Shown piece by piece: positions 1-23,100 of a stretch of 29,995 bases of DNA. The position numbers and the translations under genes were made by a program. The notes beneath the pieces were generated by a model. It was not told the DNA's origin, made no database searches, and worked only from the letters and a program-made list of their open reading frames with translations. Numbering within the stretch: the first letter of the stretch is position 1; each line of letters begins with the position of its first letter. The DNA is from a virus, in the IMG/VR virus record IMGVR_UViG_3300037847_001968, positions 1-29,995 of that record. The stretch is one strand, 5' to 3'.

Positions 1-2
1 AT

Positions 3-1205
3 GCTTTAGACAAGGGTGGTGATAACTTTAAAAAATTATACTATGATTCAGATGTTACCAAAAGAAACCGCAATGGACAGACTCGCTCAGGATTATATTC
101 TTTGTTCATACCTATGGAATGGAACTACGAAGGATACATCGATTCTTATGGAATACCTGTCTTCCAAAATCCAAGAGAGAAAACTTTTGGACCATATGGA
201 GATGAAATTAAAGACGGAGTTATCAACTATTGGAACAATGAAGTCGAAGGTTTAAAATCTGATCAAGACGCTTTAAATGAGTTTTATAGACAGTTTCCAC
301 GTACAGAGCAACATGCTTTTAGAGATGAAACAAAACAAAGTTTATTTAACTTAACAAAAATATACGAGCAAATAGATTATAACGAAGAAATTAAAAGATC
401 TGCTATTATTACAAAAGGTAGCTTTCAATGGCGTAACGGAGTGCAAGATACAACTGTAGAGTTTATGCCAAATAATAATGGTAGATTTAAAATTAGCTGG
501 ATACCTGAAACTAGTATGCAAAACAGGATAATAACTAAAAACGGTGTTAAGTTTCCTGGCAATGAGCACGTTGGTGCCTTTGGTTGTGATAGTTATGATA
601 TATCAGGTACAGTTGATAGATTAGGTTCTAATGGTGCTTTACACGGTGTGACTAAGTTTAGCATGGAAAACGCACCGCCTAATAGAGTATTTTTAGAATA
701 CGTAGCTAGACCTCAAACAGCTGAAATATTTTTTGAAGATGTATTAATGGCTATTGTGTTTTACGGTATGCCAATACTATGTGAAAATAATAAACCAAGA
801 TTATTATATTATTTAAAGCGTAGAGGTTATAGAGGTTATTCTATGAACAGACCTGATAAAGTTTGGAATAAGTTATCTGTTACAGAAAAAGAAATAGGTG
901 GTATACCAAACTCAAGTGAAGATATTAAGCAAGCGCATGCCGCTGCAATAGAAAGTTATATTGAAAACTACGTAGGACAATTAGGTGATAACTACGGTGA
1001 TATGTTTTTTAATAGAACTTTAGAAGACTGGGCTAAATTTGATATAAATAATAGAACTAAATTTGATGCTTCAATAAGCTCAGGTTTAGCTTTAATGGCT
1101 TGTAATAAAAATTTATATAGACCAGTTCAAGAAAAAACAATAAAATCAATTAATCTTGGTATTAAGAAATATGATAACCAAGGTGTTAGATCACAAATAC
1201 TATAA
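3..1205 (+). CDS. terL: Terminase large subunit, C-terminal part (5' end outside window)
   Basis: This protein packages DNA into the procapsid: an ATPase motor followed by an RNase H-like nuclease that cuts the concatemer. The reading frame is open from base 3, so the start and most of the ATPase domain lie to the left; the first in-frame ATG (102) is internal. The nuclease domain is visible. Numbering from base 3, an acidic residue sits in GCDSYD (D196), a second in the CENNKPR motif (E261), and a third in NRTKFDASISSGLALMA (D355). This is the usual three-acid layout, and the ENN motif after a hydrophobic strand is typical of large terminases. The stop is two bases before the portal start, so the two are probably co-translated. 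The family call is firm; which terminase clade cannot be judged from this part alone. Confidence 0.92.
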   Translation, partial: ALDKGGDNFKKLYYDSDVTKRNRNGQTRSGLYSLFIPMEWNYEGYIDSYGIPVFQNPREKTFGPYGDEIKDGVINYWNNEVEGLKSDQDALNEFYRQFPRTEQHAFRDETKQSLFNLTKIYEQIDYNEEIKRSAIITKGSFQWRNGVQDTTVEFMPNNNGRFKISWIPETSMQNRIITKNGVKFPGNEHVGAFGCDSYDISGTVDRLGSNGALHGVTKFSMENAPPNRVFLEYVARPQTAEIFFEDVLMAIVFYGMPILCENNKPRLLYYLKRRGYRGYSMNRPDKVWNKLSVTEKEIGGIPNSSEDIKQAHAAAIESYIENYVGQLGDNYGDMFFNRTLEDWAKFDINNRTKFDASISSGLALMACNKNLYRPVQEKTIKSINLGIKKYDNQGVRSQIL

Positions 1206-1207
1206 AC

Positions 1208-3619
1208 ATGATTAAAAAAGGTATAAAAACCTCTTTTCCTAGCCAAGCTGTTAGCGATGAAGAAAAGATGAGTGCTGAGTACGGTGCTAAGGTTGGTTCA
1301 GCTATAGAGCATGAGTGGTTTAGTAACAATGAAAACTCAAATAGATATACTACATTTAAAGAGTCATTTCACTCATTAAGGTTATATGCAAGAGGTGAAC
1401 AGTCTATTAAAAAATATAAAGATGAATTATCTATTAACGGTGATTTATCATATTTAAATTTAGACTGGAAACCTGTACCTATTATACCAAAGTTTGTAGA
1501 TATAGTTGTTAATGGCATGGCTGATAGGTCATATGATATTAAAGCATATTCACAAGATCCTGCTGCTATAAAAGAAAGAACTGATTATGTAAATGATATA
1601 GTAGATGATATGGATGCTAAAGGTTTTAACGATCAAATAGCACAAAGCTTTGGTATTGATATGACTAAAACTGATCAAGAAACTTTACCAAAATCTACTG
1701 AAGAGCTGCAACTACATATGCAACTAGATTATAAGCAAAGTATTGAAATAGCTGAAGAAGAAGCTATTAATAGTGTTTTTGATGCTAATAGATACGAGCA
1801 TATATCAAGAAGAGTTAATCAAGATTTAGTTACTATAGGTATTGGTGCTATGAAAAACTCATTTAATAAATCAGAAGGTATTAAAATACAATATGTTGAT
1901 CCAGCTGATTTAGTTTATTCATATACTGATTCACCTTATTTTGATGATATATATTATGTTGGTGAAGTAAAACAAATATATGCTAATGAGCTTAAAAAAG
2001 AGTTTCCACAAGTAACTGATGAAGAAATAGAAAGATACAGAGGTTATTCAACTGCATATAGAAAAAGAACTATTGTTAATAAAAAAGGTGATGACAGTAA
2101 CGCTATAAGTGTATTATACTTTGAATATAAAACTTACATGAGTGAAGTATATAAGGTAAAAAATACAGCTACAGGTGGTCAAAGAGCTATAAGAAAAGAT
2201 GATGGTTTTAATCCACCTAAAAACGAAGACTTTGAAAAAGTTGAAAGAGTTATCGAAGTAATATATGAAGGCGCTAAAATATTAGGTAGTGGTTCTGATA
2301 AACTTCTTAAATGGGAGTTAAAGAAAAATATGATGAGACCTAAGTCAGATACTACTAAAGCTGTAATGAGTTATAGTATATGTGCACCTCGTATGTATGA
2401 AGGTCGTATAGAAAGTTTAGTTAGTCGTGTAACTAGTTTTGCTGATATGATACAATTAACTCATTTAAAGTTACAACAAGTAATGGCTAAAATGGTACCA
2501 GATGGTGTTTATTTAGACGCTGATGCTTTAGCTGAAATAGATTTAGGTAATGGTACTAACTATAATCCGCAAGAAGCTTTAAATATGTATTTTCAAACTG
2601 GTAGTGTTGTTGGTAGATCAATGACACAAGATGGTGATATGAACAGAGGTATAAGACCAGTTACAGAAATAAACTCAAGCGGTAAAAATGGTAAAATAGC
2701 TTCTTTAATACAAACGTATAATTATTATTTACAAATGATACGTGATGTGACCGGATTAAATGAAGCTCGTGATGGTAGTATGCCTGATAAAGATGCTTTA
2801 GTTGGTATACAAAAAATAGCAGCCGCTAATAGTAACACAGCTACTAGACATATATTACAAGGTAGTTTATTTATAACTTTGTCAACAGCTGAGTGCGTGT
2901 CTATGCGTATATCAGATGTAATAGAATATTCACCTACAAGAGAATCATTTATTAAATCATTAGGTAAATTTAATGTAGGTACATTAGAAGAAATGTCTAA
3001 CTTACATTTACATGACTTTGGTATATTTTTAGAATTAGCACCTGATGATGAAGAAAAACAAAGACTTGAAAATAATATACAAATAGCACTACAGCAAAAT
3101 AGCATAAACTTAGAAGACGCTATTGATATTAGAGAAGTTAGAAACATAAAGCTTGCAAATCAATTATTAAAAATAAGAAGAAAACAAAAACAAGTTTTAG
3201 ATCAACAACAAGCTCAACAAAATATACAAGCGCAAGCGCAAGCTAACGCGCAGGCTTCACAAGCTGCTACAGCTGCTGAAATGCAAAAGCAACAAGCGTT
3301 GTCACAAGGTGAAGCTCAATTAGAGCAAGTTAAATCTCAACTTGCAATGCAAAAAATGGAAAGAGAAGCTCAAATTAAAAAAGAATTAATGGAGCTAGAG
3401 TTTCAAATGAATTTACGATTAAAACAAGCTGAAGTTGATAGTATTAAACAAAGAGAAAAAGAAAAAGAAGATCGTAAAGACGAAAGAACTAAAATACAAG
3501 CTAGTCAACAAAGTGAGTTGATAGAGCAGAGAAAAAAAGACACAGGCCCTAAAAAATTTGAATCAGCTGGATTTGATAATTTAGGTGGCTTTGGCCTAGA
3601 GCAGTTTGAGCCTAGGTAA
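1208..3619 (+). CDS. Portal protein
   Basis: The portal forms the ring at one capsid vertex through which DNA enters and leaves and to which the neck attaches. The product has 803 residues, a size like the long portals of N4-like and crAss-like podoviruses. The N-terminal third contains the stretch YLNLDWKPVPIIPKFVDIVV, a conserved-looking portal segment, followed by an alpha/beta core to about residue 640. The last 150 residues are rich in Gln, Ala, Lys and Glu with heptad-like spacing (about 650-780), probably a long coiled coil or barrel extension. The gene sits directly after terL and before the scaffold and capsid genes, the canonical position. Start: ATG at 1208, with A/T-rich upstream sequence and no Shine-Dalgarno motif. 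The call rests on context plus recognised sequence character, not on a catalytic motif. Confidence 0.85.
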   Translation: MIKKGIKTSFPSQAVSDEEKMSAEYGAKVGSAIEHEWFSNNENSNRYTTFKESFHSLRLYARGEQSIKKYKDELSINGDLSYLNLDWKPVPIIPKFVDIVVNGMADRSYDIKAYSQDPAAIKERTDYVNDIVDDMDAKGFNDQIAQSFGIDMTKTDQETLPKSTEELQLHMQLDYKQSIEIAEEEAINSVFDANRYEHISRRVNQDLVTIGIGAMKNSFNKSEGIKIQYVDPADLVYSYTDSPYFDDIYYVGEVKQIYANELKKEFPQVTDEEIERYRGYSTAYRKRTIVNKKGDDSNAISVLYFEYKTYMSEVYKVKNTATGGQRAIRKDDGFNPPKNEDFEKVERVIEVIYEGAKILGSGSDKLLKWELKKNMMRPKSDTTKAVMSYSICAPRMYEGRIESLVSRVTSFADMIQLTHLKLQQVMAKMVPDGVYLDADALAEIDLGNGTNYNPQEALNMYFQTGSVVGRSMTQDGDMNRGIRPVTEINSSGKNGKIASLIQTYNYYLQMIRDVTGLNEARDGSMPDKDALVGIQKIAAANSNTATRHILQGSLFITLSTAECVSMRISDVIEYSPTRESFIKSLGKFNVGTLEEMSNLHLHDFGIFLELAPDDEEKQRLENNIQIALQQNSINLEDAIDIREVRNIKLANQLLKIRRKQKQVLDQQQAQQNIQAQAQANAQASQAATAAEMQKQQALSQGEAQLEQVKSQLAMQKMEREAQIKKELMELEFQMNLRLKQAEVDSIKQREKEKEDRKDERTKIQASQQSELIEQRKKDTGPKKFESAGFDNLGGFGLEQFEPR

Positions 3620-3643
3620 TTATTAATTATATAATATTTTATT

Positions 3644-4957
3644 ATGGAAAACACTGAAAAGCAAGAAAATGTTATTCAAGAGGTAGAAACAAAAAAGGTT
3701 GAAGCGCCTGTTGAAGAACAAAAACAAGAAGCACCTAAAATTCAAGCTAGAATAGTTGAACAAGAAGGTGGTAATTTTAAAATTAAATTAAAAAAGAAAA
3801 ATGAGCCCGTTCAAGAGCAAAGCACAGATGAAGTACCTGTTCGCGACGAATCCGACGCTAGCAAAGAAGTTTCTAAAGAAAACAAGCAAGAGCAAGTTGA
3901 AAAGCCTGCCGAAGAAGTTAAAGAAACGAAAGAAGAGGTAGTTCTTGAAGAGGTAAAACAAGAAGAAGTACAACAACAAGAACAAGTTGTACAAGAAGAA
4001 ATTAAACAAGCTGCAGTTGAAAAACAACCTGAGCCACAAGTAATTGTACCTGAAAACTTAAAAGAATTAGTTAAGTTTATGGAAGATACTGGCGGTAATC
4101 TCGAAGATTATGTAAGGTTGAACGCAGATTATTCTAAAATAAATGATAATGCATTATTGTTAGAATATTATAAAACGACTAAACCTCATTTAAACATGGA
4201 AGAAATAAACTTCTTAATTGAAGATAATTTCAAAGTTGATGAGGAAATTGATGAGCCAAGAGATATTAAAAAGAAAAAATTGGCTTTCAAAGAAGAAATT
4301 GTAAAAGCTCGAAAGCATCTTACTGGTTTAAAGGATCAGTATTACAAAGAAGTCAAGTTGGGTTCTAAGTTGACCACCGAGCAGAAAGAGGCAGTAGAAT
4401 TTTACAATAAATACAAACAAGAACAAACCACTAATAGTGAGATCGAAAAACAACAGCTAGAACGTTTCAAAAAGTCTACTGACTCTGTATTCAATAGTAA
4501 TTTCAAAGGTTTTGATTTTAATGTTGGAGAAAAAACTTATAGATATAATATTAAAGATGTTCAAGGTGTTAAAGAGTATCAAAGCAACATGTCTAACTTC
4601 ATAGGAGAGTTTCTTGATGAAAACAACATGATGAGTGATGCAAAAGGTTATCATAAAGCTTTATACGCTGGTAAAAACATAGATAAAATTGTTAAACATT
4701 TTTATGATCAAGGTAAGGCAGATGCAATAAAAGAGACTAGTATGAGTGCTAAAAACATTGATATGTCTCCAAGAACTGCTGCGCCTGTTGTTGATGCTGG
4801 TGGTAGAAAGTTTAGAGTATTAAGTGGTGATGATAGTTCTAGTTTGAAATTTAAAATTAGAATCAAGGTTGGGCGCAACAATACCTACCTGAGTTGTACG
4901 AACAAGAAATCGAAAGATACGGAAATCGTACAATTAACGGATTTTTGGCAATGGTAG
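3644..4957 (+). CDS. Scaffold-like head assembly protein (reading frame probably altered at its 3' end)
   Basis: This is probably the internal scaffold or head-morphogenesis protein that guides capsid assembly; position (between portal and major capsid) and composition support this. Residues 1-135 are extremely rich in Glu, Lys, Gln and Val and look disordered. Residues 135-300 are helical and charged. The C-terminal part ends in a basic element, SLKFKIR, at about residue 406. A similar basic element, NFKIKLKKK, occurs near residue 47. The last 32 residues (from base 4859) lie over the start of the capsid protein in another frame. They have a different composition and end at a TAG that overlaps a capsid codon. 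The natural C-terminus is therefore probably near base 4860, and the tail to 4957 is likely an artefact of a small deletion or frameshift. No protease domain is visible. Confidence 0.6.
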   Translation: MENTEKQENVIQEVETKKVEAPVEEQKQEAPKIQARIVEQEGGNFKIKLKKKNEPVQEQSTDEVPVRDESDASKEVSKENKQEQVEKPAEEVKETKEEVVLEEVKQEEVQQQEQVVQEEIKQAAVEKQPEPQVIVPENLKELVKFMEDTGGNLEDYVRLNADYSKINDNALLLEYYKTTKPHLNMEEINFLIEDNFKVDEEIDEPRDIKKKKLAFKEEIVKARKHLTGLKDQYYKEVKLGSKLTTEQKEAVEFYNKYKQEQTTNSEIEKQQLERFKKSTDSVFNSNFKGFDFNVGEKTYRYNIKDVQGVKEYQSNMSNFIGEFLDENNMMSDAKGYHKALYAGKNIDKIVKHFYDQGKADAIKETSMSAKNIDMSPRTAAPVVDAGGRKFRVLSGDDSSSLKFKIRIKVGRNNTYLSCTNKKSKDTEIVQLTDFWQW

Positions 4958-6192
4958 GGGCAGAGATGCCTATGTCATCCGATCAAGTAGTATGGTCTGA
5001 GCAAAACAGATTACATATTGCTTATAAGCACAAAGCTGGTGGAAACGAAACTTGTGTTATTACAACTGTTTCTTCTGGTTTAATTACTTTAGGTTCTGAT
5101 TACACTAACTCTGTAAGAATAGGTGCTACAGTGATCGTAACAGATGCTGCTACAGGACTTAAAACAAATGTATGTAGAGTTTCTGCAACAGATTCAAGTG
5201 CTAACACATTTAATGTTAAGCCTTACAAAACTGCTACGTTATCAGCTGATTTAAGTGATTCTGACGGTGTTAATGTTTTTGTATTTGGTTCTGAGTTTGC
5301 TAAAGGTTCTGCTTCTATGGTAGGAGAGCTTAAGCCAGCTTTTACTAAATTCGACAACAAGCCAATGATTATCAAAGATCACTTTAAAATTTCTGGTTCT
5401 GACACAGCACAAATTGGTTGGGTTGAAACTATTGATGAGTCTGGACAATCAGGATTTTCTTGGTATATGAAGTCTGCTAGTGAAACTAGATTAAGATTTG
5501 AAGATTACCTAGAAATGTCTATGGTTGAAGCTGTAAAAGGTGTTCCTGGTTCTTCAACTGCTGATACTGATATGGGTATTGCTGGTGAGAATTTTGGTAG
5601 CGAAGGTTTATTTGCTGCAGTTGAGTCAAGAGGTAATGTATTTGAAGATTTAGCTTCACTTGCTGATTTTGACTTAATCTTAAAAAATCTTGACAAGCAA
5701 GGTGCTATTGAAGAAAACATTTTATATGTTAACAGAGAATTAGCTTTAACTTTTGACGACATGATGGCTGGATTAAACGCTAACTACGGTGGCGGTGCTT
5801 CTTTTGGAGTATTTGAAAATTCTGCTGACATGGCATTAAACTTAGGTTTCTCAGGACTAAGAAGAGGTTCTTATGACTTCTATAAGTCTGACTGGAGATA
5901 CTTAAACGATGCAACTGGAAGAGGTGGTTTTGGAGATATTTCTGGAATTTTAATTCCTGCTGGTGTATCATCTGTATATGATGAGAACTTAGGTAGAAAT
6001 ATTAAGAGACCTTTCTTACATGTTAGATATAGAGCTTCACAAACTGATGACAGAAGAATGAAGTCTTGGGTAACAGGATCTGTTGGTGGCGCATCATTTA
6101 TCGGTGACGATATTATGGAAGTACACTACTTATCTGAAAGATGTTTAGTTGTACAAGCTGCTAACAACTTTGTTCTGTTAAAAGAAGCATAA
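4894..6192 (+). CDS. Major capsid protein (true start unclear)
   Basis: This is the main shell subunit, inferred to be an HK97-fold protein of the crAss-like/marine flavophage kind. Recognisable stretches are HFKISGSDTAQIGW, WYMKSASETRLRFEDYLEMS and the C-terminal region with RPFLHVRYRASQTDDRRMKS. A Ser/Thr/Val-rich segment at residues 50-130 may be a surface insertion domain. The listed start is TTG 4894, the first permitted start codon, but coding character clearly continues upstream in this frame to base 4861. The codons before TTG read NQGWAQQYLPE and are preceded by an in-frame TAG at 4858. The next ATG is at 4951, inside what looks like conserved protein. The real start has thus been lost or lies beyond a short missing segment. 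The gene overlaps the scaffold frame by 64 bases as it stands. Confidence 0.85.
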   Translation: MYEQEIERYGNRTINGFLAMVGAEMPMSSDQVVWSEQNRLHIAYKHKAGGNETCVITTVSSGLITLGSDYTNSVRIGATVIVTDAATGLKTNVCRVSATDSSANTFNVKPYKTATLSADLSDSDGVNVFVFGSEFAKGSASMVGELKPAFTKFDNKPMIIKDHFKISGSDTAQIGWVETIDESGQSGFSWYMKSASETRLRFEDYLEMSMVEAVKGVPGSSTADTDMGIAGENFGSEGLFAAVESRGNVFEDLASLADFDLILKNLDKQGAIEENILYVNRELALTFDDMMAGLNANYGGGASFGVFENSADMALNLGFSGLRRGSYDFYKSDWRYLNDATGRGGFGDISGILIPAGVSSVYDENLGRNIKRPFLHVRYRASQTDDRRMKSWVTGSVGGASFIGDDIMEVHYLSERCLVVQAANNFVLLKEA

Positions 6193-6217
6193 TTAATAAC
6201 CTTTAAAACTAAATAAA

Positions 6218-6565
6218 ATGGATAAATTTTTATATTTTGCAGACGGTAACGGAGCAAACGCAACAGGTGAGGCTGTGCTAATGCCTTTATCAGCTTTTAG
6301 AGGTGCAGATCCTGTGGACGCAACTTCATTATTATTGTTTTTTGCACCACAACAGATTACAGATGTTGCTACAAGTGATGTCGTTGATCAAATAGACCTA
6401 ACAATAACTAGTAATACTCATAAAAAAGTGTTACAAGATATTTGTAAAGCTATAAACGCACAAGGTGTTAGTCTCGGAGACGGATTTATTAATATTTGCG
6501 ATGCTGATAACTCAGTTTTTGCTTCTAGTGATATTTCTGCATGCGCGATTACATTAGCTGCATAA
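6218..6565 (+). CDS. Small hypothetical protein downstream of the major capsid gene
   Basis: A 115-residue protein that I do not recognise. It has no signal peptide and no membrane helix. Sequence features are a Gly/Ala/Asn-rich start (about residues 8-17), a hydrophobic stretch near DATSLLLFFAP, a predicted beta segment (IDLTITSN) and a short helical segment containing KVLQDICKAINAQG. It lies 25 bases after the capsid stop and is followed at once by a strong hairpin terminator. A short gene just after the major capsid is often a decoration, head-fibre or minor structural protein; that role is inference from position only. ATG start in an A/T-rich context. Confidence 0.6.
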   Translation: MDKFLYFADGNGANATGEAVLMPLSAFRGADPVDATSLLLFFAPQQITDVATSDVVDQIDLTITSNTHKKVLQDICKAINAQGVSLGDGFINICDADNSVFASSDISACAITLAA

Positions 6566-6574
6566 ATTACTTTT

Positions 6575-6610
6575 TAAACCAAAGGCGTCTTAATGGCGCC
6601 TTTAGGTTTA
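6575..6610 (+). terminator. Strong rho-independent-type terminator after the capsid unit
   Basis: TAAACC at 6575-6580 pairs with GGTTTA at 6605-6610, and AAAGGCGTC at 6581-6589 pairs with GGCGCCTTT at 6595-6603 with one G-T pair. This leaves a five-base loop and one bulged A at 6604, about 15 base pairs in all. A run of T (TTTTT at 6611-6615) follows. It is strikingly GC-rich for this AT-rich region and would reduce read-through from the capsid and 115-residue genes into the next gene. Confidence 0.8.
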
Positions 6611-6637
6611 TTTTTAACTATTTAATTATATTATATT

Positions 6638-7435
6638 ATGGCAAAAAAGAAAAAAGAAGTATTGGTTGAAGAGCCAATACAAGTAAAAGATACGTCTCCA
6701 AGATGGGAGATGAAAGATAGACAATATTATTTAAAACAAGACGGTAGTCCTTTGACTTATGTTTTACAGTCTAAATCAAGCAGAAAAAAACCATTATTAT
6801 GGTGGGACGAAGATAAAGGTGAAAACAGAGAAATAAGATACTCTAGTAATCAAAAATCACCTTTTGTTGATGAGCAAGACAAAAACGTAATGTTAGATCA
6901 TATTATTTTTGAAGAGGGTGTATTATATGTACCTAAACAAAAACAAGCACTACAAAAATTATTATCTTTATATCACCCTAAAAAAGGTCTTGTTTATGAT
7001 GAAGTAGATAATGTAGCAGATGCAAAAGAAGATTTAATTGATATTGAAACTGAAATGAAAGCATTAAACACAGCTACATCTATTGAAATAGATCAAGCTG
7101 AAGCTATATTGAGAGTTGAACTTGGTTCAGCTGTTGATAAAATGAGTTCAGCTGAAATAAAAAGAGACTTGTATTTATTTGCTAGACAAAACCCAGTTTT
7201 ATTTTTAGCTCTTGTAAACGATGAAAATGTTATACTTAGAAACTTAGCTATTAAAGCTAATGAGTCTGGAGTTATAAGATTATCACAAGATCAAAGAAGC
7301 TTTACATGGGGTTCTAATGATAGAAAATTAATGGAAGTACCTTTTGATGAAAATCCATATAGCGCGTTTGCAGCTTGGCTTAAAACTGATGAAGGTGTTG
7401 AAGTTTACAAATCAATACAAAAAAAGTTAAACTAA
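6638..7435 (+). CDS. Hypothetical protein between two hairpins, probable virion component
   Basis: The product has 265 residues and no family I recognise. It begins with a basic Lys run (AKKKKE). An aromatic, charged region follows (residues about 25-80, with WWDEDKG and FVDEQDKNVMLDHIIFEEGVLYVP), then a helical segment around LGSAVDKMSSAEIKRDLYLFA. The C-terminus has aromatic and charged patches (FTWGSNDRKLMEVPFDENPYSAFAAWL). There is no signal peptide and no membrane helix. It is flanked by a terminator on the left and another hairpin on the right, so it may be transcribed partly as its own unit. The setting among head and neck genes suggests a structural or assembly role, which is inference only. 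ATG start; the upstream region is almost pure A/T. Confidence 0.6.
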   Translation: MAKKKKEVLVEEPIQVKDTSPRWEMKDRQYYLKQDGSPLTYVLQSKSSRKKPLLWWDEDKGENREIRYSSNQKSPFVDEQDKNVMLDHIIFEEGVLYVPKQKQALQKLLSLYHPKKGLVYDEVDNVADAKEDLIDIETEMKALNTATSIEIDQAEAILRVELGSAVDKMSSAEIKRDLYLFARQNPVLFLALVNDENVILRNLAIKANESGVIRLSQDQRSFTWGSNDRKLMEVPFDENPYSAFAAWLKTDEGVEVYKSIQKKLN

Positions 7436-7444
7436 CAACTAATG

Positions 7445-7473
7445 ATCACGGCCCTTTAATTAGGGCCTGTGAT
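7445..7473. terminator. GC-rich hairpin, terminator-like or RNA-processing element
   Basis: ATCAC at 7445-7449 pairs with GTGAT at 7469-7473, and GGCCCT at 7450-7455 pairs with AGGGCC at 7462-7467. The loop is six bases (TTAATT) with one bulged T at 7468. No T-run follows on the + strand (TATAATAAAATA instead), so it is a weaker terminator candidate than the hairpin at 6575. It may instead protect a 3' end or be processed. It occupies most of the gap between two genes. Confidence 0.6.
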
Positions 7474-7489
7474 TATAATAAAATATAAA

Positions 7490-8185
7490 ATGGCAATATC
7501 AGTAGATAGAGTATATAGAAAAGTATTAGCTATACTTAATAAAGAGTCCAGAGGTTTTTTAACACCAGATGAGTTTTCTAAAATAGGTTCACAAGCTCAA
7601 CTTGATTTACTAGACAAAGCGTTTCACGATTATAATAGAGCTATAACTAGAGAATCAGTAGGTAGAACTGGTGTAGGATATGCTGATATACCTAGAAAAA
7701 TACAAGATCGTATAGATCCGTTTTACGCTACGTCAAGCGTAACATTAACAAATGGTGTTGGAACTTTACCAACATTTTACAATATTATAAGTATATCTAC
7801 AGACAGTAGATTAACTAATTTAGAGCGTATAAAAAAATCTAAATTAAGTTTTTTATTATCTTCACCATTAACTGCACCCTCAACAACTTTCCCAATATAT
7901 TATGTAACAGGTAGTACTATAACAGTAAATCCTAGTAGTTTAACATCTATTGATATAGACTATATATCTGTGCCTTCAGATCCTGTTTGGAACAGCACTG
8001 TTGATAGTAATGGTGCATTAACTTTTAACTCTGATGGTGCTGTAGATTTTACACTACATCCATCAAGTGAAGTTGATTTAGTATTAGAAATATTAAGATA
8101 CACTGGTGTAGTAATAAAAGATCCTAGTGTTATACAAAGCGCTACAGCTGAAACAACACAAAAAGTACAACTTGAAAACTCATAG
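7490..8185 (+). CDS. Head-tail connector / neck-type structural protein
   Basis: The protein has 231 residues from the ATG at 7490. A GTG at 7469 would add seven residues, but it lies inside the 3' arm of the hairpin and the peptide it adds looks non-coding, so I chose the ATG. The N-terminus (SVDRVYRKVLAILNKESRGFL, then DEFSKIGSQAQLDLLDKAF) is a helical segment that I recognise from structural proteins next to the ring or tail-tubular gene in marine and Bacteroidetes podoviruses. The rest is beta-rich with Ser/Thr runs (VTLTNGVGTLPTFYNI, YYVTGSTITVNPSSL). It ends with a TAG three bases before the next ATG. It probably sits between portal and tail; an adaptor or ring function is inferred from neighbours. 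No enzyme motif is visible. Confidence 0.65.
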   Translation: MAISVDRVYRKVLAILNKESRGFLTPDEFSKIGSQAQLDLLDKAFHDYNRAITRESVGRTGVGYADIPRKIQDRIDPFYATSSVTLTNGVGTLPTFYNIISISTDSRLTNLERIKKSKLSFLLSSPLTAPSTTFPIYYVTGSTITVNPSSLTSIDIDYISVPSDPVWNSTVDSNGALTFNSDGAVDFTLHPSSEVDLVLEILRYTGVVIKDPSVIQSATAETTQKVQLENS

Positions 8186-8188
8186 TAA

Positions 8189-9367
8189 ATGTCATTAATT
8201 AAAACAACACAAGAAATATACTACAAAGGCCAACAGGTTTTTTATTTAAACCTTAGTAATAGTGCTTTTACTTTATCGCACACATACTCATTAAGTAATT
8301 TTGAAGACAAGTTATCAGCTAATGATATTAGAGTTTTTGTTGAATCAGGTGATTTTACACCAGGTGAAACTAGTTTTGTTAATAGACAAATATTTGACTT
8401 TACAGTTAGTGATAATGTTTTAACAGTAGCTACTGGTGGTGATGGTGACGATGCTTTTGATGAATTATCTGAAATAAATGTAGACGGTGTTTTAAGAGTT
8501 GAGCTAATAAATCATATGTTTGGTGGCTACAGACATACATCATTATCTGATGTTGTAAATAACTTTATGGTTAGCTATGTTGGTGATGGTAAGATTATAA
8601 ACAATGTAGCTAAATCAGATGTTATATTTCACGCTAAACGTGGTTTACAAGAATTTAGTTATGATGTTCTTAAAACAGTTAAAATACAAGAGGTTGAGTT
8701 AGGCCCATCATTAGCAATACCTATGCCCCAGGACTATGTAAGTTATGTTAAAGTTTGTTATATAGACAGTTCTGGTATTAAGAAAATAATATATCCAACT
8801 AGACTAACTACTAATCCTACTGAAACACCAGTGCAAGATTTAAACTATGATTACTTATTTAGTAGTGATGGTAAGATTATTGAAGGTAGTTCATATACAG
8901 AAAATCAATGGCAAGCTTTTGATACAGATAATTTAACAGGTAATTTAAGTACAGAAGAAGATTATTATATAAGTAGAGATAATCATTTAGGTACTGATTT
9001 TGGTAGAAGATATGGTATTGAGCCTGAGCACCAACAAATAAACGGTTATTTTACAATAAATGAAAGAACTGGTAGTTTTAATTTTAGTAGTGATTTATCT
9101 GGTAAAATTATAGCATTAGAATATATATCAGATAGTTTAGGTACTGATGCTGAAATGAAAATACATAAGTTTGCTGAAGAAGCTTTATACAAACATATAG
9201 CTTTTAATGTTATTGCAAACAAAAGAAATATGCCTGAGTATATAGTACAAAGGTTTAAAAAAGAAAGAAGAGCTGCAATGCGTAATGCTAAGCTTAGATT
9301 ATCTAAAATAAACTTAGCTGAAATATCACAAGTATTAAGAGGACAAAGTAAACGAATTAAAAATTAA
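8189..9367 (+). CDS. Tail ring / tail-tubular-A-like structural protein
   Basis: The product has 392 residues. The middle segment VIFHAKRGLQEFSYDVLKTV, followed by QEVELGPSLAIPMPQDYVSY, is a pattern I recognise from ring or tail-tubular-A-like (T7 gp11-like) proteins of podoviruses that infect Bacteroidetes. The N-terminal 110 residues are beta-rich and end in a Gly/Asp stretch (TGGDGDDAFDE); they resemble the first domain of podoviral tail-completion proteins. The C-terminus is helical and very basic (RFKKERRAAMRNAKLRLSK), suited to packing on the portal or neck. The gene starts three bases after the previous stop and ends three bases before the muzzle-like gene, so the three genes are tightly co-expressed. 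The general structural call is good; the exact ring position is inference. Confidence 0.7.
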   Translation: MSLIKTTQEIYYKGQQVFYLNLSNSAFTLSHTYSLSNFEDKLSANDIRVFVESGDFTPGETSFVNRQIFDFTVSDNVLTVATGGDGDDAFDELSEINVDGVLRVELINHMFGGYRHTSLSDVVNNFMVSYVGDGKIINNVAKSDVIFHAKRGLQEFSYDVLKTVKIQEVELGPSLAIPMPQDYVSYVKVCYIDSSGIKKIIYPTRLTTNPTETPVQDLNYDYLFSSDGKIIEGSSYTENQWQAFDTDNLTGNLSTEEDYYISRDNHLGTDFGRRYGIEPEHQQINGYFTINERTGSFNFSSDLSGKIIALEYISDSLGTDAEMKIHKFAEEALYKHIAFNVIANKRNMPEYIVQRFKKERRAAMRNAKLRLSKINLAEISQVLRGQSKRIKN

Positions 9368-9370
9368 TAT

Positions 9371-12300
9371 ATGCCTAAAATTCAAAATAGCTTTTTAAAA
9401 GGTAAAATGAATAATGACCTTGATGAAAGGCTTGTGCCAAAAGGTGAATACCGTGACGCACAAAATATATTAATTACACAATCAGAAAACTCTGATGTAG
9501 GCGCTGTAGAAAATATACAAGGCAACGCTTTGGCTTTAACAAGCCCGTTTTTAAGAGATAATCCTAATATAGAAACTATTGGTTATTTTGCAGATACATT
9601 AAATAAAAGAGCTTTTTGGTTTGTTACAGATTTTGCGGGCGACGATAGCGATGTTAGATCAATGAGTAGAGCATCATCTACAAACACTTGTGCTATATTA
9701 ATGGGTGAATTAGATAATAGCGAAACACAAGCTAAAATACTAGTACAAGGACGTTTTTTAAATTTTAGTACTAATCACTTGATAACAGGTGTAAATTTAA
9801 TTGATGATTTATTATTTTTTACAGACAACTATAATCAACCTAGAAAAATAAATGTAACAACAGCTTCTTCTAATCCTGAACATTATACTAAAGAAGAACA
9901 AATATCAGTTGCAAAAGTAGCTCCATACTTAGCGCCAATGCTTTATAAACAAGATTTTGACGGCGTAATAACTCAATCAACTAAATTAACTAATGATACT
10001 AGTATAACATCTGATTTTTTAAAAGACAGATTTGTTAGGTTTTCATATAGGTATAAATATGCAGATGGTGAGTTTACAACAATGGCTCCTTTTACGCAAA
10101 TTGTTTTTAAACCACTTAACGATGGTGTTATAGACAGTAGAATAAGTACTGATACTAGCATTACGGATTATCAAGATGTGTATTCTAAAACTATATTAGA
10201 TGTAATGAAAAATAATTATAACAAAATAGAGTTAAGAATACCTTTACCAAGTGATGAATATGTAGAAGATGAATTAATTGATTGGCAAAATGAACTTGAT
10301 TTGGTTAAATTAGAAATACTTGTAAAAGAGTCTGATCAGGATGTTGTTAAAGTGGTAAAAGAAATAGATGTAAATGCTAATGATTTTAATAATTCAATTG
10401 AAAAATTTAGAGTTATAAATGAGTCAGACAGTAGTATAACTTACTTTAGACATGTATATAAATATGTTTATAGATCAGAAAAACCTTTTAAAATACTAGA
10501 AGACAAGCAAATTACAAGGGTTTTTGATCAAGTACCCGTAAGAGCAAAAGCTCAAGAAATATCTGGTAATAGAGTTATATATGGTAATTTTACAGAAAAT
10601 TATAATTTACCAACAGACTCAAGTGGTAAAACAGGTATAAACTATGTAATAAATACTAATACAAAAGGAGCTTACCATTTTGACACATTTGGTAGTCCGT
10701 TGATCAATAACAATGATGAAAATCTTTTTTCTACTAATAAATACCACTCTTTAAAACAAAGAAGAAAATATCAAGTAGGTATAATACTTGCTGATAAATT
10801 TGGTAGACAATCACCTGTTATTTTATCAACAAACAACGATGAAAGTGCTATTGAAGATGCAACAACTGATACTGCTAGTATAGCCTCTTCTGATACTGTA
10901 TTTCAAGAAAATGTAACTCAAGACTTTTCTGGAAGTTCTTATACTTGGAATAGTAGTGTTAATGAACAAGTTATTGGTAGATCTTTGTTTATACGGTTTC
11001 TTGAAAATAATATAGTTAGTTCTAGTGACTTATATGATGGTGATATAAATAGTAGCACATATAATCCATATGGCTGGTATTCATATAAGTTTGTAGTAAA
11101 ACAACAAGAGCAAGAGTATTATAATATATACACTAGTCACCCAGCAGATACTTGGAATAACGAGTCTAACGGTCATGATGATGTTCAAGGTTTTACTTGG
11201 ATTAGTTTATATGGAGATAACATAAATAAAGTACCTAGAGATGTCAATGAGGTTGATGAAATAAGAGAAGGTGTGGCTGGTTCTGACACTAAATTATTTC
11301 CTAAAGTAATAAAAAAAGATCAACACAACGAAAATAGTTTTAGCACTAGAAGTGTAGCTGGTCCAAATGTAGATCCTATTGAGGTTATGACAATAGGTAC
11401 AGCTAGAGAACAAGGTATATTAACTCAAGATGATAGAGATAAAGACAGAGTGCATGATTTTGTAATGGCAAAACGTAATCCACTACTTGCTCAAGTAAAA
11501 TCAATAGGTACTAATAATAGAGTTAAATACGGTGTTAAAATAAATGCTATTGAAGCTAATACATCAACAACTCGTGATGTGTTAAAGTTTGGTAAAAACA
11601 ACGAAACAATACCGTATGTTAGAGTTGGTCAACAGTTAACTAAATCTCCTATAGATGAAAACGCGCCTATACATGATTTATTTATAGCTAAAAGAGTTGA
11701 AAGATTATTTATTGATGCTGATCAAGAAGGTTTAGATAGCAAATCTATTAAGTTAAACCGAGTACCAGATAAAATGAAAGCTGGTCAAATAATAGAGTTT
11801 GAATCTTCTCCAACTGATGGTATTGAAGCAAATACACCTTTATCTGTTACTAGTCATTTTGCTGGAAGCGCAGTGCTTACTGTTCAAGCTTCATTTGCAA
11901 ATGTATTTAGTTACGCAGCTGTTTTCAATCAAGTTCAAGCATATCAAAGTCAACTAGCACAAAACGCAAATGGCAATTGGGCTGCTACTGTTGGTTTAAA
12001 CGATACGATTACAGTTACAGTTGGCGAAGGTGCTGATGCTGAAATAGTAAACGTACCTATTAATACTGTTTTTGTTAACGGTACTTTATCAACTGGTACT
12101 TTACCGTCAGGCACTTTTATAGTTGATATGGTTCAAACAAATCCTCTTGCCTTTACTATAACTTTAAACCAAGCTATGCCAACTAGCTTTATGCCGGTTG
12201 GTGGAACAGGCTCAACAGAAGGTGTGTTGAATACATTTACTTTAGAAGGTGTAAGTGAATTTAGTTTATTTAGAACTATTACAAATACCACCGCTACAAG

Positions 12301-14059
12301 AGAAATACATGGTGATGAGGTTCTTGTAAGAAGGCCTGTATTACAAGAAGTTGAATTAGTTGATAATAATGATAAAGCTGTTTTACACTTTGATAGAAGA
12401 GTTTTAAAAAATGAAATACCAGGTGTTGGTCTTTTCGGTATATCGTTTCAATATAGACTTTATTTATGGGATCCTATAACTATAAAATCAGTTGAAACTA
12501 ATACTGTTGATAATGAAGTTATTCAAACTATACAGCTTAGCCATGAACTTGAAATTAGCGAAAACGAAGAGTTTACTGTTCAAAACTTAGAGTCTGAACC
12601 TGTAGCTGTTAGAACTGGTTTAACTGTTTTAGAAACAGATCCTTTTGTGTCAAATATAGATATATTCTTTGAATCATCAACAAGTGGCTTAATAAGAGAT
12701 TTACATAATAAAATTAATAGCAATAGAATAAAAGCTGATACTAAAGAAATATCTTATTTTAATACGTTTATACTTGCTGGTGGTGGTACTAATGTAGAAC
12801 AAAATTTAGGTGAGTTTCACGTAGAAGAGTCTAGAATAAAAGGTGAGTTTAACGGTAAATCTGTTGATTTTGGTGTAAGAGCTCATTTAATAGACACTGA
12901 ATATGCTCAAAGAATTAGAGGCAACGCGCTAATACACTCTGGCATATACAATGCTAAAACTTTAGTAAACAAAACTAATGAGTTTTCAATTGGTGAAAAC
13001 ATAACTAAAGCAGTTGATATACAAAATGGTACTATACAAAAACTATATGCTGAAGACACTAACTTAATTATATTTCAAGAAAACAAAGTTAATATTGCGG
13101 CTATAGATAAAGATATTATATTTACACAAGAAGGTCAACCGCTATCAACAGCTTCAAAAGTAGTAATAGGACAAGTAGTTTCTGTAGCTGGTAAATACGG
13201 TATAAGTAAAAATCCAGAAAGCTTTGCTGTTCATGGTAATAGAAAATATTTTGCTGATAAAAATAGAGGTACAATAATGAGGTTGTCTCGTGATGGTTTA
13301 ACTCCAATATCAGATGCTGGTATGCGTAGTTTTTTTAGAGATAACTTAGCAAAAGCAAAACTCATTTACGGCATGTATGATGAGCAAAAAAATAAATATG
13401 TAGTATCACTACAAAACGATACAGAAGTTATGACTAGACAGCACGAGATTGCTTCTAGTAGCACATCTACATCAAGACTTGATCAAAAATATGCCACTTT
13501 GTCATATGATGAGGCTTCTAAAGGTTGGGTGTCGTTTTATACTTATAAACCTACGTTTGGTTTTAGTTTAAGTAATGAGTTTTACACATATAACAACGAT
13601 AAATTGTTTCAACATTATAGAGATGATGTTCAAAGATGTAAATTTTATGGTAATGCTAATCCTGATCCAGCAAATATAGAGTTTGTATTTAACGATCAAC
13701 CAAGTACTATTAAAAACTTTCACACTATAGATTATGAAGGTAGTACAGGTTGGCAAATGTCATCTGCTGAAACAGACATGCATCAAGCTTTTCCTATATT
13801 AAGTAGCGATACTACAGTTGATGCATTATCAATAGCTGTAAATTTTGTTAATAAAGAAAACAAATATTATGGCCATATAAGAAATAATACAACAACAACT
13901 GCTTTAAATCAAATAGTAGGTGTTGATTTATCAGGTATAAAAGGATATTTTAATAAAGTAAAAATGCAGTATTGGAAACCAACAGAAGCTATTGCTTCAT
14001 CTGTTAATAAAGCAGAGCTTTATGCTGTTAGTAGCGAAACTGTTTATTCATCACAATAA
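9371..14059 (+). CDS. Very large tail muzzle / nozzle or stabilisation-like protein
   Basis: A 1562-residue protein, about twice the length of T7 gp12 and three times P22 gp10, the classical podoviral nozzle and stabilisation proteins. The N-terminus (QNSFLKGKMNNDLDERLVP, GEYRDAQNI) fits the start of such propeller proteins, where a first strand and loop precede the blades. Repeated propeller-like strands occur at the start (ITGVNLIDDLLFFTDNYNQP, near residues 140-160) and near the end (YGISKNPESFAVHGNRKYFA, about residue 1275, then a YDEQKNKYVVSL strand). Residues about 780-990 form a Thr/Val/Ala-rich beta segment between KLNRVPDKMKAGQIIEF and VRRPVLQEVEL and may be an inserted domain. No enzyme motif is seen. 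The position after the ring protein and before ejection proteins supports a distal tail role. Receptor binding is possible but not shown. Confidence 0.65.
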   Translation: MPKIQNSFLKGKMNNDLDERLVPKGEYRDAQNILITQSENSDVGAVENIQGNALALTSPFLRDNPNIETIGYFADTLNKRAFWFVTDFAGDDSDVRSMSRASSTNTCAILMGELDNSETQAKILVQGRFLNFSTNHLITGVNLIDDLLFFTDNYNQPRKINVTTASSNPEHYTKEEQISVAKVAPYLAPMLYKQDFDGVITQSTKLTNDTSITSDFLKDRFVRFSYRYKYADGEFTTMAPFTQIVFKPLNDGVIDSRISTDTSITDYQDVYSKTILDVMKNNYNKIELRIPLPSDEYVEDELIDWQNELDLVKLEILVKESDQDVVKVVKEIDVNANDFNNSIEKFRVINESDSSITYFRHVYKYVYRSEKPFKILEDKQITRVFDQVPVRAKAQEISGNRVIYGNFTENYNLPTDSSGKTGINYVINTNTKGAYHFDTFGSPLINNNDENLFSTNKYHSLKQRRKYQVGIILADKFGRQSPVILSTNNDESAIEDATTDTASIASSDTVFQENVTQDFSGSSYTWNSSVNEQVIGRSLFIRFLENNIVSSSDLYDGDINSSTYNPYGWYSYKFVVKQQEQEYYNIYTSHPADTWNNESNGHDDVQGFTWISLYGDNINKVPRDVNEVDEIREGVAGSDTKLFPKVIKKDQHNENSFSTRSVAGPNVDPIEVMTIGTAREQGILTQDDRDKDRVHDFVMAKRNPLLAQVKSIGTNNRVKYGVKINAIEANTSTTRDVLKFGKNNETIPYVRVGQQLTKSPIDENAPIHDLFIAKRVERLFIDADQEGLDSKSIKLNRVPDKMKAGQIIEFESSPTDGIEANTPLSVTSHFAGSAVLTVQASFANVFSYAAVFNQVQAYQSQLAQNANGNWAATVGLNDTITVTVGEGADAEIVNVPINTVFVNGTLSTGTLPSGTFIVDMVQTNPLAFTITLNQAMPTSFMPVGGTGSTEGVLNTFTLEGVSEFSLFRTITNTTATREIHGDEVLVRRPVLQEVELVDNNDKAVLHFDRRVLKNEIPGVGLFGISFQYRLYLWDPITIKSVETNTVDNEVIQTIQLSHELEISENEEFTVQNLESEPVAVRTGLTVLETDPFVSNIDIFFESSTSGLIRDLHNKINSNRIKADTKEISYFNTFILAGGGTNVEQNLGEFHVEESRIKGEFNGKSVDFGVRAHLIDTEYAQRIRGNALIHSGIYNAKTLVNKTNEFSIGENITKAVDIQNGTIQKLYAEDTNLIIFQENKVNIAAIDKDIIFTQEGQPLSTASKVVIGQVVSVAGKYGISKNPESFAVHGNRKYFADKNRGTIMRLSRDGLTPISDAGMRSFFRDNLAKAKLIYGMYDEQKNKYVVSLQNDTEVMTRQHEIASSSTSTSRLDQKYATLSYDEASKGWVSFYTYKPTFGFSLSNEFYTYNNDKLFQHYRDDVQRCKFYGNANPDPANIEFVFNDQPSTIKNFHTIDYEGSTGWQMSSAETDMHQAFPILSSDTTVDALSIAVNFVNKENKYYGHIRNNTTTTALNQIVGVDLSGIKGYFNKVKMQYWKPTEAIASSVNKAELYAVSSETVYSSQ

Positions 14060-14061
14060 TT

Positions 14062-15099
14062 ATGAAAGAAAAATTATATTTGTTTTTAGGTTTGTTTTTC
14101 ACGGTAACACCGATGTTTGCTGCTATTGATCCAGTAACAGGTATCTTTATGGGTGTTAGTTTTCTTAGTAGTCTTTTTGGAGGCGGAGCAGCGCGTAGAC
14201 AACAAAGACAAGCGCGAAGATTACAAAGAAGGCAAGAGAACCAAGTTAAAGCTTTAGAAGCTAATAGGCAAGATATACCTGATTTTGGTCAAGATTTAGA
14301 AAATCCATTTGCTAATTTACAAATTGCAACTAGAGCGGCTGAAATGCAAGCAGAGCAACAAGATATATCATTAGCTAGCACATTAGATGTATTAAGAGCT
14401 ACTGGCGCTAGCGCTGGTGGTGCTACAGCTCTTGCTAGAGCAGCGTCACAAAGTAAAAGAGGTGTTGCTGCTCAAATAGAAAAACAAGAAGCTAGAAACG
14501 CTCAGTTAAGAGCACAGGGCGAGTTACAATCTGCTGCGTTAAGACAAAGAGGCCAACAACTTGAGTTTGCAGCTGGAGAAAGAAGAGAGATGCAACAATT
14601 AAACAGAGCTTCTAGTTTAGCTAGCTCTGCAAGTCAACAAGCCGCGGCATACGGTGCACAAGCAAGCGCTATGTTTGGGCAAGCTGTTGGTACATTAGGT
14701 ACTTTTGCAGCCGCTGGTGGTTTTGGTAAAAGTGGGCCATTTGCGAGTGCTCCTAACACTGTAACTAATGCAGCTGGTCAACAAGTTGCTATGCCTGATT
14801 TATCAAGAACACCTCAATCAGTTAAATTTGATCAACTTATTGATATTAACTCAGCTTCTTTGACTCCAAATAATTTAGCTGGTCAAGTAATGAGCGGTGC
14901 TTATTCAGATCCAATGACAGGCGATGTTATTACGCCTAACGCACCTATTTCTAATGTAAATATGGCGGCAAATACGCAATTTAACCCTTATAATACTCCT
15001 AATTTTGGTAACACAATGGGTAATAATTTTATTAACAACCTTTCACAATTTGGCCTTACTAATCAACAGCTTAGCGCTTTAGGCGGTTTTAGATTTTAA
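14062..15099 (+). CDS. Probable ejected internal virion protein (T7 gp14-like character) with a signal-peptide-like N-terminus
   Basis: A 345-residue protein. Residues 1-21 (basic start, hydrophobic core LYLFLGLFFTV, then TPMFA) look like a Sec signal peptide with cleavage after Ala 20. A second hydrophobic stretch (GIFMGVSFLSSLFGGG) follows, then a strongly basic helix rich in Arg and Gln (about residues 44-66). The middle is Ala/Gln/Arg-rich amphipathic helix with repeated alanines, and the tail is Asn/Phe/Pro-rich and probably unstructured. The hydrophobic-head plus Ala/Gln-helix layout resembles short podoviral internal core proteins that enter the host outer membrane on infection. The gene begins two bases after the muzzle gene stop and precedes two larger probable cargo proteins. 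The function is inferred from layout and composition; homology was not tested. Confidence 0.55.
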   Translation: MKEKLYLFLGLFFTVTPMFAAIDPVTGIFMGVSFLSSLFGGGAARRQQRQARRLQRRQENQVKALEANRQDIPDFGQDLENPFANLQIATRAAEMQAEQQDISLASTLDVLRATGASAGGATALARAASQSKRGVAAQIEKQEARNAQLRAQGELQSAALRQRGQQLEFAAGERREMQQLNRASSLASSASQQAAAYGAQASAMFGQAVGTLGTFAAAGGFGKSGPFASAPNTVTNAAGQQVAMPDLSRTPQSVKFDQLIDINSASLTPNNLAGQVMSGAYSDPMTGDVITPNAPISNVNMAANTQFNPYNTPNFGNTMGNNFINNLSQFGLTNQQLSALGGFRF

Positions 15100-17168: not shown

Positions 17169-20100
17169 ATGGCAAACGGACAAAACGATCAGTTGGTCGG
17201 ACCAGTAATTTTTGAAACACCGTCTCCTTTGTTAGTTCCACAAGAAGATGAGCAACCTGTTGTTGCGCCTGGTTTTTCTAATAGAATAACTGGTGATGGT
17301 GGTATAGGTGACATATTAAAACCTATTATTAGTGATTTATCAAATGATTATGCTGGTGATAGTAAACAAAAATGGTTTACAGGTGATGTAAAGCTAGATG
17401 AAACAACTTACAATGATAAGATAACAGCGTTAATAGATCAGTATAATTCTGCTTATGAAGATACTAATTTTGAGTTTACACCATATACTTCTTATGATCC
17501 AAATAGTAACGCGCAGTTTAAGCAAATAAAAGTTGTAGGTGAAAACGGTAATGAAAAGCTTTTTGATTTTAAAAATGGTAATCAAATACCTGAGATAAAT
17601 AACTTTATAGAAGAAACTAAAAGTGAAGAAAATAGAAATAAATCTAAATCTACACAAGCATCATTAGAAAGTTTTTTAAATCGTAATTTAAACTTTGATA
17701 GTGGTAATTGGAGAAGAAGTGGAGAAGAAGCATATGATCCACTTGGACCTGATTTTTTACGTGAAACTTTTCAAGATAAAGGTTATTTAGGTTTAAATGA
17801 TTATATTGAAAGAGAAGGACCTGAAGGCCTAAGAAAAGAATTAAGAAAACAATTTAACGAGTTATTAAGATTTAATAACCCTCTTGAATCAAGAACTGAT
17901 TTTTTATCATTTGACGACTCTACAAACGCAATGGGTATAAGTGATTATAAATTCGACCAGATTTTTGATCAAATATTAAACGAGCAGTTAACAAAAGAAG
18001 AGTTAAGTAAACAAGATTTTAATAGAAAATTATTACAACAAGAGATAAACGAACAAAATCCTAGTGATAATTTTTTATTTAAAATAGAAGGAGATGATAT
18101 TGATTATAGAGATTTACCTGAATATGCGCAAATAAGTGAAAGTTATTTTAAAACAGCTGTATCTAGTTTAAATTCAAAAGAACGAGAAATAGGTGGTGTA
18201 AATGAAAAAATTTTACAATTAAGCTATGATTATGCTAACATGGTTGATAGTGGTGATTTATTAGGCGCTAATATTTTAAAATCAGAAATAGAAGCATTGC
18301 AAAATAAATCAATATCACTACTTAACGACTACATGGAAGGCAACACTAAATTGTTTTTTAATTTTGCTGAAGGCAGCGTTAGATTTGATCAACCAACACC
18401 CAACGCTAATCAAGATGATAACATAAGCGTCGAATATAATAAATATATTGATGAGTTTACTATTTTAAAAAATGAAGACTTTCAAGCTTTGCAAGAAAGA
18501 TTCAATATGAATAGTATGAATTTTGATAATTTAGATAAAATTTTAAAACAAACTTATGATATAGAAGGCGCGTTTACTATTCAAGGAGCTGGCGGAAGCT
18601 GGAGTCGTCTTGGTGATAGATTAAGACAAGCTGGTTATGAATATGATCCAGAAACAGGTATATATAAAGATATACCTATGTCTTTTTTAGTTGAAAACAA
18701 TGATGTAATAGGTAAAGAACAAATAAATGTACCTAGTGATAAAGGTGATATTGTAAAACCTGATTTAAAAGGTTTAGCTGTAAACTTAAGAGAGCAAATT
18801 AAAACAAATGCTATTGAGCGAAAAGCTTTAACTACTATGTATGTATTAAATACTGATCCTGGTAGTTTAAAAAGAACAAGTGGAGTAGCTAGTTTTGCTG
18901 AAAGTATGATAGAAACTTTTACTGGTGATTTAAGAACAATACAAAGTAAATCTGATAGATTAGCTGATATAGAAAAAATAGGTAATAGCATTGGTGTACC
19001 TTGGTCTGAAAATCAACAAAGAAACTTTCAAGAAACAAGAGGTGAGTTTGTTGGAAAAACATTAGGTGCTGTTCCTCAAATAGCAGCTGAGTTTGGTATT
19101 TTAAATGCTGTTACAGGTGGTATTTCTACTGCTACAGGATTAAGTAGCGCGCTAATGACTATGAGAGTTGGTAGGCTTTACAAAAACGGTAGACAAATAT
19201 CTCATGCATATGCTAGACAAAGAGCTCTATCAAAAGGATATAGTTTAAATAAACAAGGTATTGAAGCTTTTTATAAAGCAGACGGTATAACAGTTAGAGG
19301 AGCTAGTGTTATAGATAAAGCTCAAGCATTAGGTATTACAATGCTTATAGAAGAAGGTAAAATGCAACTTATGGGTTTACCTACAGGATCTGGTGCTTCT
19401 TTTGCTTTTACAGGTAGTGTACTTAATAGCGTTACAAAAAGATTAGGTTTTTATTTTACAGGTGGATTAGCTAATCTTAATTCAGGTTTAAAATTTGCTA
19501 GAGGAGGTATAACTTTTGGTATATCTGCAGAAGCGGCTTTAAATGTTGAAGCTGCTATAGATGATTTAATAGGTGGTAAAGACTTTCAAACATTTATTGA
19601 TGAAAACTATAGAGAACTTTCAGGTGATGAAATAACAAAAAGACAACTAGGTCATATTTTAACTGGTTTAGGTTTTGCTATAGGTCATTCAAGAACTTTA
19701 CAAACAGGTATTAAAGGTATTAGATATGGTTTAAAAGGCGACGGTTTTGCTTTTACTATAAATCAAAAGAAAAAATTAAGAGATAAAGTTGAGAAAATAA
19801 TTGATAATGAGCTTAAAAAACCAGAAAATCAAAGAGATATTGCAAAAATAGAAAAATATAATGATTTAATAGCTGAAATAAAAAGACAGTTAGATGTAGC
19901 TGAAGGTTATTATAGATATTATACGCCTGAAATACTTAAAAAACGAGTTGAAAGAGACTTGCTTAGAAATAAAAAACAAGCTGTAAAAGATTATGGTGAT
20001 TTTTATGAAATAAAAGTTCAAATAGGTGGTAAAGGCTTAAATGGTTCTGGCGCTCAAATTAAAATGATTAATGGTAAAAAAACATTAGTTGTTGATGCTT

Positions 20101-23100
20101 TAAACCATAGAAACAAAGGTATAGTGCCACACGAAATGGCTCATTTTTATACTGAAAAAGAAGGCTTTACTGAAGAAGAATTTGAAAGATTATATGACAT
20201 TATTGAGTTACAAGTAGACGCTGCTACAAAAACTTATTATACTAAAAAAGGTTATAAAAGTTTCAAAGAGTTTATAGAAACAGAATATAAAAAAGTTAAT
20301 GAAAAAACAGCTTTAGGTTCTGAAAAAATAGCTAATATAATTGAATTTATATCTAACAAAGACATAATGAAAAACATTGTTGAAAATAATGCTTTTTTTA
20401 GATTTGAACAAGGTATAAAAAGTTTTTATGAAAGAAGATTACAAGGAAAAGGCATATTTAAAAACAAAGAAATAGGTTTTCAAGATGCTCAAGATGTAAT
20501 GGCTGCTTTATATAGAATAGCTAATGCAACTGGTAAAAGAGGTGTTGCTAGACAATGGAGACAATTAAGAGGGTTAGTACAGTTTAACGGTGAGCTTATA
20601 GATGCTAAAACACAACTAACAGTTGGTAAAACTTCTAAAAAAAGTTCATTAGAGTTATCTGTTGAAAACTTTAGAGAACGTCAAACAGAGCAACGTGAAA
20701 ACGAACAAATATATCAAAGAGTTGATAGATTAATCAACGAAGCTATTAAAAATGGTACTTGGGAGCGAAACAAACGAGATGTATCTTTTCAATTAGCATA
20801 TGAATTTGAAGGCAACATAATAGGTAGACTAAATAGATTACAAAGATTAGGTAAACTAGAAGGTTTTACAAAAGATGATATTTCTTTAATAGCTGGTGAA
20901 TATGTAACAGCTGAAAAAAATGGTTTAAGATCTGCTATAGAAGCTTTTAAACCTGAAAGAATGATCGATAGAAATACAGGTAAACCTAGTTTAGCAACTT
21001 ATTTAGAAAGCTCTACTGCTCAAGGTAAATTAATAGATGTAAAGCTAAGAAAGTTCTATCAAGAAAGTCCTAAGTTTGGTAGAATAATAAAAACTATTAC
21101 AGAAGATAAAGTTAAAAGACAAGTAGAAGCTAGGTTAATAGAGCAACCTTCACTTGATATAGTTGAAATAAAAGAAGGTGCTAAAATTAATCCGTTAGAA
21201 TTAAAAAGTATTGAAAACAAAAGCGAAAGACAAAGCTTTGAAACAGCAATACGTGAAAACTTTAACAAGTTTACTGATCAACAAGTTGGTGAATTAAGTT
21301 TTAACAAGTTAAAAGATTTAGCTCCAGAAGTAACTGCTAAGTTTTTTGGTATACCTAAATCAAAAATAATAGATGCTACTAAAAATTTAACATATAGTCA
21401 AAAAATAAAAGACGGTGTTAGAGTTGCTTCTGAAGCTGGTAATGTACAAAATGTTATAAATAGAAACGCGTTAGAGTTATTAGCTTTATTACCTAAAACA
21501 AATGTAGTTCCAGAAACTAGTATAAATAAAGTTGATGTAAGTAGAAACATAGTTGGTACATCACTCGGTTTACCCAGCTCGTTATTAAAAGTTTTTTATA
21601 ATAAAACAGGTGAAAGAAGCAAAGGCTTAACATCTCAAACCAATATATTTGAAATTAAAAAAGATTTAAGTATAAAAGATTTTAAAGAAGCTTTTGGTAT
21701 AACAATAGGTGGTGAATTAAATACTTATAATAGACAAATTGGTCAAAGATTAAAATCAATGGCTTCTTTAACAGGTAAGTTAATAACAAACAAAGCTGTT
21801 AGAAATATACTAGCAGGTAGAGATGTTAACACTATAATAAACGATATAGCCGCTGGTAAGTCTGATAAAATGTCTAGCTTACAGTTAAGTGAATTAAATA
21901 GAGAAATAAGATCTATATTAATACCAACAGCTGAATTAGTAAAACAAAAACTAAGAGAAAATTCTGATATATTTAAGATTAAATCACAAAAAGAAATTTT
22001 TGACATAGTTGATAAAGTATTTAAAGATAAAACACTAGAAAAAGATATTTCTGGTACAGAGCAAATAGCTAGAATATTTGAAAACGCTAATGCTAAAAGA
22101 TTAGCTGAACAAAGTGGTTTAGAAGTAGCAGATATTACTTTCTATGAAAAGTCTACTTTAAAAAGATATAAAGCTAGGTATGATAGAGAAGGTATAAGCG
22201 ATCAATATAAAACAGTAGAGCAGAGAGATAACCCTGTAGATTTAGCTAGAAAAAGAAACTTTGAAACTAAAATATTAAATAAATTTGCTAAAGATGTGCC
22301 TTTGCGTGTTTTAGATGCATTTGTTGATACGTTTGGTACTAATACTAGAAGTTGGAAACGAGATGGTAAGTATGTTAACAAGGGTAGAGAAGGTTCTCAA
22401 AAGTTTCTTGAAAAAGAATATCCTGGATATACTGGATCTGGTAAAAAATACGATGGAAAATATGATGCTGTATACTGGCCTACTAATTGGGGTGAAAAAG
22501 GAAGTGGTGTAAAAAAACCTTTTTTAGATTTAATAAAAAAATTAGACAGACAAAACGCTTCAGAAGCTGAAAAAAACACACAGCTTACAGAGCTTTTTAA
22601 CAAGGTAATGACAAATCCAAACGGTAAGTATACATATGAACAAACAGCAAGAGCTAATAGAATTTTTTTAAATGATTATTTAAATGCAACTAGAGAAGCT
22701 TATAAAGAAACTTCAAAACAAACCAAAGAAGTAGATGCTAGAGTAGATATGTATAGACACTACCAGATGCAAACTAATATAGCTAGAGGTATTTTAAAAG
22801 GCGCTGTACCTGTTACATCTATAAGTACTAGAGCTGAAGGTAAAAAAGGTTTACATTGGGAGCACAATATGCAGCTAAATAATTTTAGCGACTTCTTTTT
22901 TGATATAAATGCAGCTGGTGGTAAAAAATCAGATATAAGTATTTTAGTTAATAATGCTAGTCAAGCTTTAATACCTTATAGTTTAAAACAAAAAAACGAT
23001 AGCGCTGAAAGCGGTGGTACTACAGGTTATGGCAAGTTTTACGGTAAAGATGGTATGGCTACATTATCTAGTAATCCTGAAATGAATTTTATTACTAATC

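Follow-up and report, generated by a model that had tools for sequence, protein, structure and literature searches.

A 135-bp segment missing from the scaffold-capsid boundary of a marine flavophage contig

The described relatives of the sequence analyzed here are Bacteroidota phages, i.e., the Flavobacterium elemo phages, Maribacter phage Panino, and Cellulophaga phages including phi38:1. The elemo phages, Panino, phi38:1 and Calle_1 have a member of PHROG 13704 ('virion structural protein'), and phi38:1 is placed in Pervagoviridae, Callevirus. Methylation at two lysine sites, 359 and 385, has been reported for the putative major capsid protein of phi38:1, there called gp067 (2026 mSystems, PMC13288928). 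In the phi38:1 homologue of the capsid protein discussed below, gp093 in the GenBank record, lysines also occupy positions 359 and 385, and these matching residues suggest that gp067 and gp093 are the same protein. Capsid proteins of PHROG 13704 have their own start codon and some 25-42 residues before the motif (G)WAQQYLPE, and their genes are expected in the order terminase-portal-scaffold-capsid.

The DNA that we analyzed (the window) comprises positions 1 to 29,995 of IMG/VR record IMGVR_UViG_3300037847_001968 and is a fragment of a marine, podovirus-like flavophage genome. It has the expected gene order, all on the plus strand: the 3' part of a terminase large subunit gene that extends past the window start (3-1205; PHROG 6681, E 4.1e-88), an intact portal protein gene (1208-3619; PHROG 6547, E 3.9e-148), a scaffold-type gene starting at 3644, and a 5'-truncated major capsid protein gene (4861-6192). 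The scaffold-type gene is related to phage genes for structural or hypothetical proteins situated between portal and capsid, and both this location and its composition point to a scaffold function. The capsid-family protein belongs to PHROG 13704 (E 1.8e-95, with homology over the capsid body; the capsid alignment was built from 27 family members) and is an ordinary flavophage capsid protein. The capsids of elemo, Panino, phi38:1 and Calle_1 are homologous to it over nearly the whole length, at about 37-50% identity, and the order of the four genes is shared. These phages have an intact capsid N-terminus and a separate scaffold stop, whereas the window has neither.

Direct reading of the boundary agreed with what a sequence-only reading had described. 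In the capsid frame, a TAG at 4858-4860 is followed at once by coding sequence, and the codons at 4861-4893 (NQGWAQQYLPE) contain no ATG, GTG or TTG. The first in-frame candidate starts are TTG 4894 and ATG 4951. The scaffold ORF (3644-4957, 437 amino acids) overruns into the capsid gene, as that reading had also stated, and terminates at TAG 4955-4957. From 4859 onward, its final 32 codons (RIKVGRNNTYLSCTNKKSKDTEIVQLTDFWQW) are almost entirely capsid sequence read out of frame. The authentic scaffold coding part spans 3644 to approximately 4862, with the last codons and the stop absent, and the run-on at 4863-4957 has no counterpart in the relatives.

An IMG/VR search with the capsid identified a sister contig, IMGVR_UViG_3300038530_002689 (loci L001/G001 and L113), the capsid of which is identical over the whole query. 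Over about 14.3 kb, window and sister contig differ at 10 single bases, and they align in two blocks: window 1-4862 corresponds to L113:1-4862 (four differences), and window 4861-14309 corresponds to L113 from 4996 on (six differences). Between the blocks the sister contig is longer by exactly 135 bp. Its scaffold gene is intact (408 amino acids, L001:1649-2875) and ends in KFKIRNK-TAA, matching the earlier expectation of a scaffold end near KFKIR at about 4860. The ATG of a 478-residue capsid lies 20 nt after this TAA. Residues 36-478 of this capsid are identical to the window capsid, and Asn36 is the first residue of the window sequence, preceded by 35 residues ahead of NQGWAQ. The additional 135 bp of the sister hold the final scaffold codons with their stop, the spacer, and the capsid ATG and first 35 capsid codons. 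Although 135 is a multiple of three, the two genes use different frames, and the scaffold ORF therefore runs on.

Judged from this alignment, the boundary anomaly is demonstrably a clean local loss of 135 bp, of a segment that is present in a near-identical contig. The N-terminal feature of PHROG 13704 that the window capsid lacks, and the sister contig has, is the deletion itself. The explanation preferred beforehand, in which a short segment with both the scaffold stop and the capsid ATG has been lost, is borne out by the sister contig; the segment had been called intergenic, but it is larger and also takes the last scaffold codons and 35 capsid codons.

The same boundary could be read in 79 relatives with 51-100% capsid identity, and all 79 have a normal gene boundary with scaffold stop and spacer. 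Isolates such as elemo, Panino and phi38:1 show the same arrangement. In the 79, the scaffold stop precedes the capsid ATG by 10-36 nt (median 22), and a further 25-42 codons (median 35) separate this ATG from the position at which the window capsid begins. Because TTG 4894 and ATG 4951 are both in frame and open, translation from either might give a shorter capsid protein. At the site of TTG 4894, 17 of the 75 relatives read there have TTG and the rest another Leu, Ile or Val codon; at the site of ATG 4951, 42 of 79 encode Met and 37 encode Gln or Ala. The A content of the 20 nt upstream is 35% for TTG 4894 and 30% for ATG 4951; for the ATGs of the relatives it averages 63%, and for that of the sister contig it is 65%. 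Every one of the relatives has an ATG ahead of the junction point. The unusual TTG start proposed earlier is neither conserved nor plausibly placed, and use of an internal start is highly improbable.

A programmed -1 frameshift or a translational bypass, also suggested by the sequence-only reading, would produce a scaffold-capsid fusion. The capsid frame is indeed offset by -1 from the scaffold frame, and neither contains a stop across 4861-4954. However, the scaffold frame contains no slippery heptamer of the type X XXY YYZ between 4799 and 4955, as had been noted before; none of the 79 relatives has overlapping or fused scaffold and capsid frames; and the genes are separate in a sister contig only 10 single-base differences away over 14.3 kb. 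The proposal finds no support in these comparisons, and we consider such recoding extremely improbable. A circulating deletion variant that still assembles, with its capsid made from an internal start or as a scaffold-capsid fusion, is hardly credible either. The boundary is not a new biological feature, nor a new way of starting a capsid gene.

The breakpoints of the deletion overlap by 2 nt (AA, 4861-4862). Since about 22% of all 135-bp deletions in the region would have an overlap of at least 2 nt, the breakpoints carry no notable homology. Direct repeats were considered as the basis of a k-mer mis-join, but of the two imperfect pairs found, one (13 nt, spaced by 290 nt) does not fit the loss of 135 bp, and the other (21 nt, spaced by 24 nt) does not span it. 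Hairpin potential of the lost segment (DNA fold z -2.4) was also discarded as a cause, the breakpoints having no matching repeat. The RNA fold at the junction likewise gave z -2.4; the relatives do not have the junction. A promoter and terminator scan of 4700-5100 gave nothing above chance, and a literature search on this type of artefact gave nothing specific. Ordinary mis-joins in de Bruijn assembly run through a shared k-mer and need a longer overlap than 2 nt; the junction therefore probably existed in some sequenced molecule, either a library chimera or a deleted genome.

The 2-nt overlap suits illegitimate recombination, or another event at the level of the molecule, better than a k-mer mis-join. 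It fits an actual loss of the 135 bp from some genomes of the virus population. Such genomes would be defective, with a wrong-tailed scaffold and little or no capsid protein, and would be kept only transiently or by co-infection. Against this, the capsid is essential in tailed phages, and its N-terminal region is retained in all 79 relatives. The junction is found in this contig alone: its 23-mer matched no other IMG/VR contig in a search that may leave out records very near the window, whereas an intact scaffold-end 26-mer occurs in 29. Furthermore, the rest of the capsid is unchanged and the ORF list shows no other evident frame break in the window, and nothing therefore points to decay or adaptation. 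A real deletion therefore appears rather unlikely.

The most likely explanation is an ordinary local deletion of probable technical origin in a population with the normal gene layout. The unique junction, the universally kept capsid N-terminal region, and the otherwise unchanged scaffold and capsid genes favor a technical origin. The virus population would have the scaffold gene, its stop, a 20-nt A-rich spacer, and an ATG opening a capsid whose first 35 or so residues precede the part present in the window. Removal of the 135 bp leaves the scaffold gene without its stop and the capsid gene without its start and first 35 codons, with the spacer between them also gone, and the scaffold frame, different from that of the capsid, continues to the next chance stop. 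The loss would most likely be technical, through a chimeric library molecule or an assembly path, or represent a dead-end defective genome. Such an origin is more likely than a working arrangement, and the junction is unlikely to function as a gene layout.

The main value of this case is a caution on the annotation of such contigs. Gene callers applied to this contig would overextend the scaffold and place the capsid start at a false TTG, and these errors would enter databases. Comparison with relatives also reveals the true N-terminus of this uncultivated capsid family.

Structural modeling of the intact capsid with AlphaFold2 gave a low-confidence model (mean pLDDT 49.6, with residues 1-33 below 50), which says little about the N-terminal region. 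The best PDB match of this model in Foldseek was the capsid of Vibrio phage VP1 (E 2.4e-8, TM-score 0.26, rmsd 24.5), and the third was the phicrAss001 virion; these matches lend weak support to a capsid fold, the HK97 type being the one expected for the family. A search of solved structures with the capsid profile returned nothing.

The sister contig has a defect of its own, a join of 10 N at L113:11754-11763 (about window 11612-11618) inside a 1562-residue ORF. It is flanked by a duplicated CGTATG, and the window sequence is unbroken at this place. Each of the two contigs thus has one local defect not shared by the other. Five of the 10 single-base differences between them cluster in 45 bp, at window 12905-12949. 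Elsewhere in the window, GTG 7469 is the listed start of one ORF (MIIIKYKMAIS...), for which ATG 7490, seven codons on, looks the likelier start. A very large ORF of 2939 amino acids at 17169-25988 gave no Pfam match. A peptidase M15 family gene (PF08291), possibly encoding an endolysin, lies at 28350-28808, and the C-terminal part of a ribonucleotide reductase large subunit (PF02867) is encoded on the minus strand at 28805-29995, continuing past the window end.
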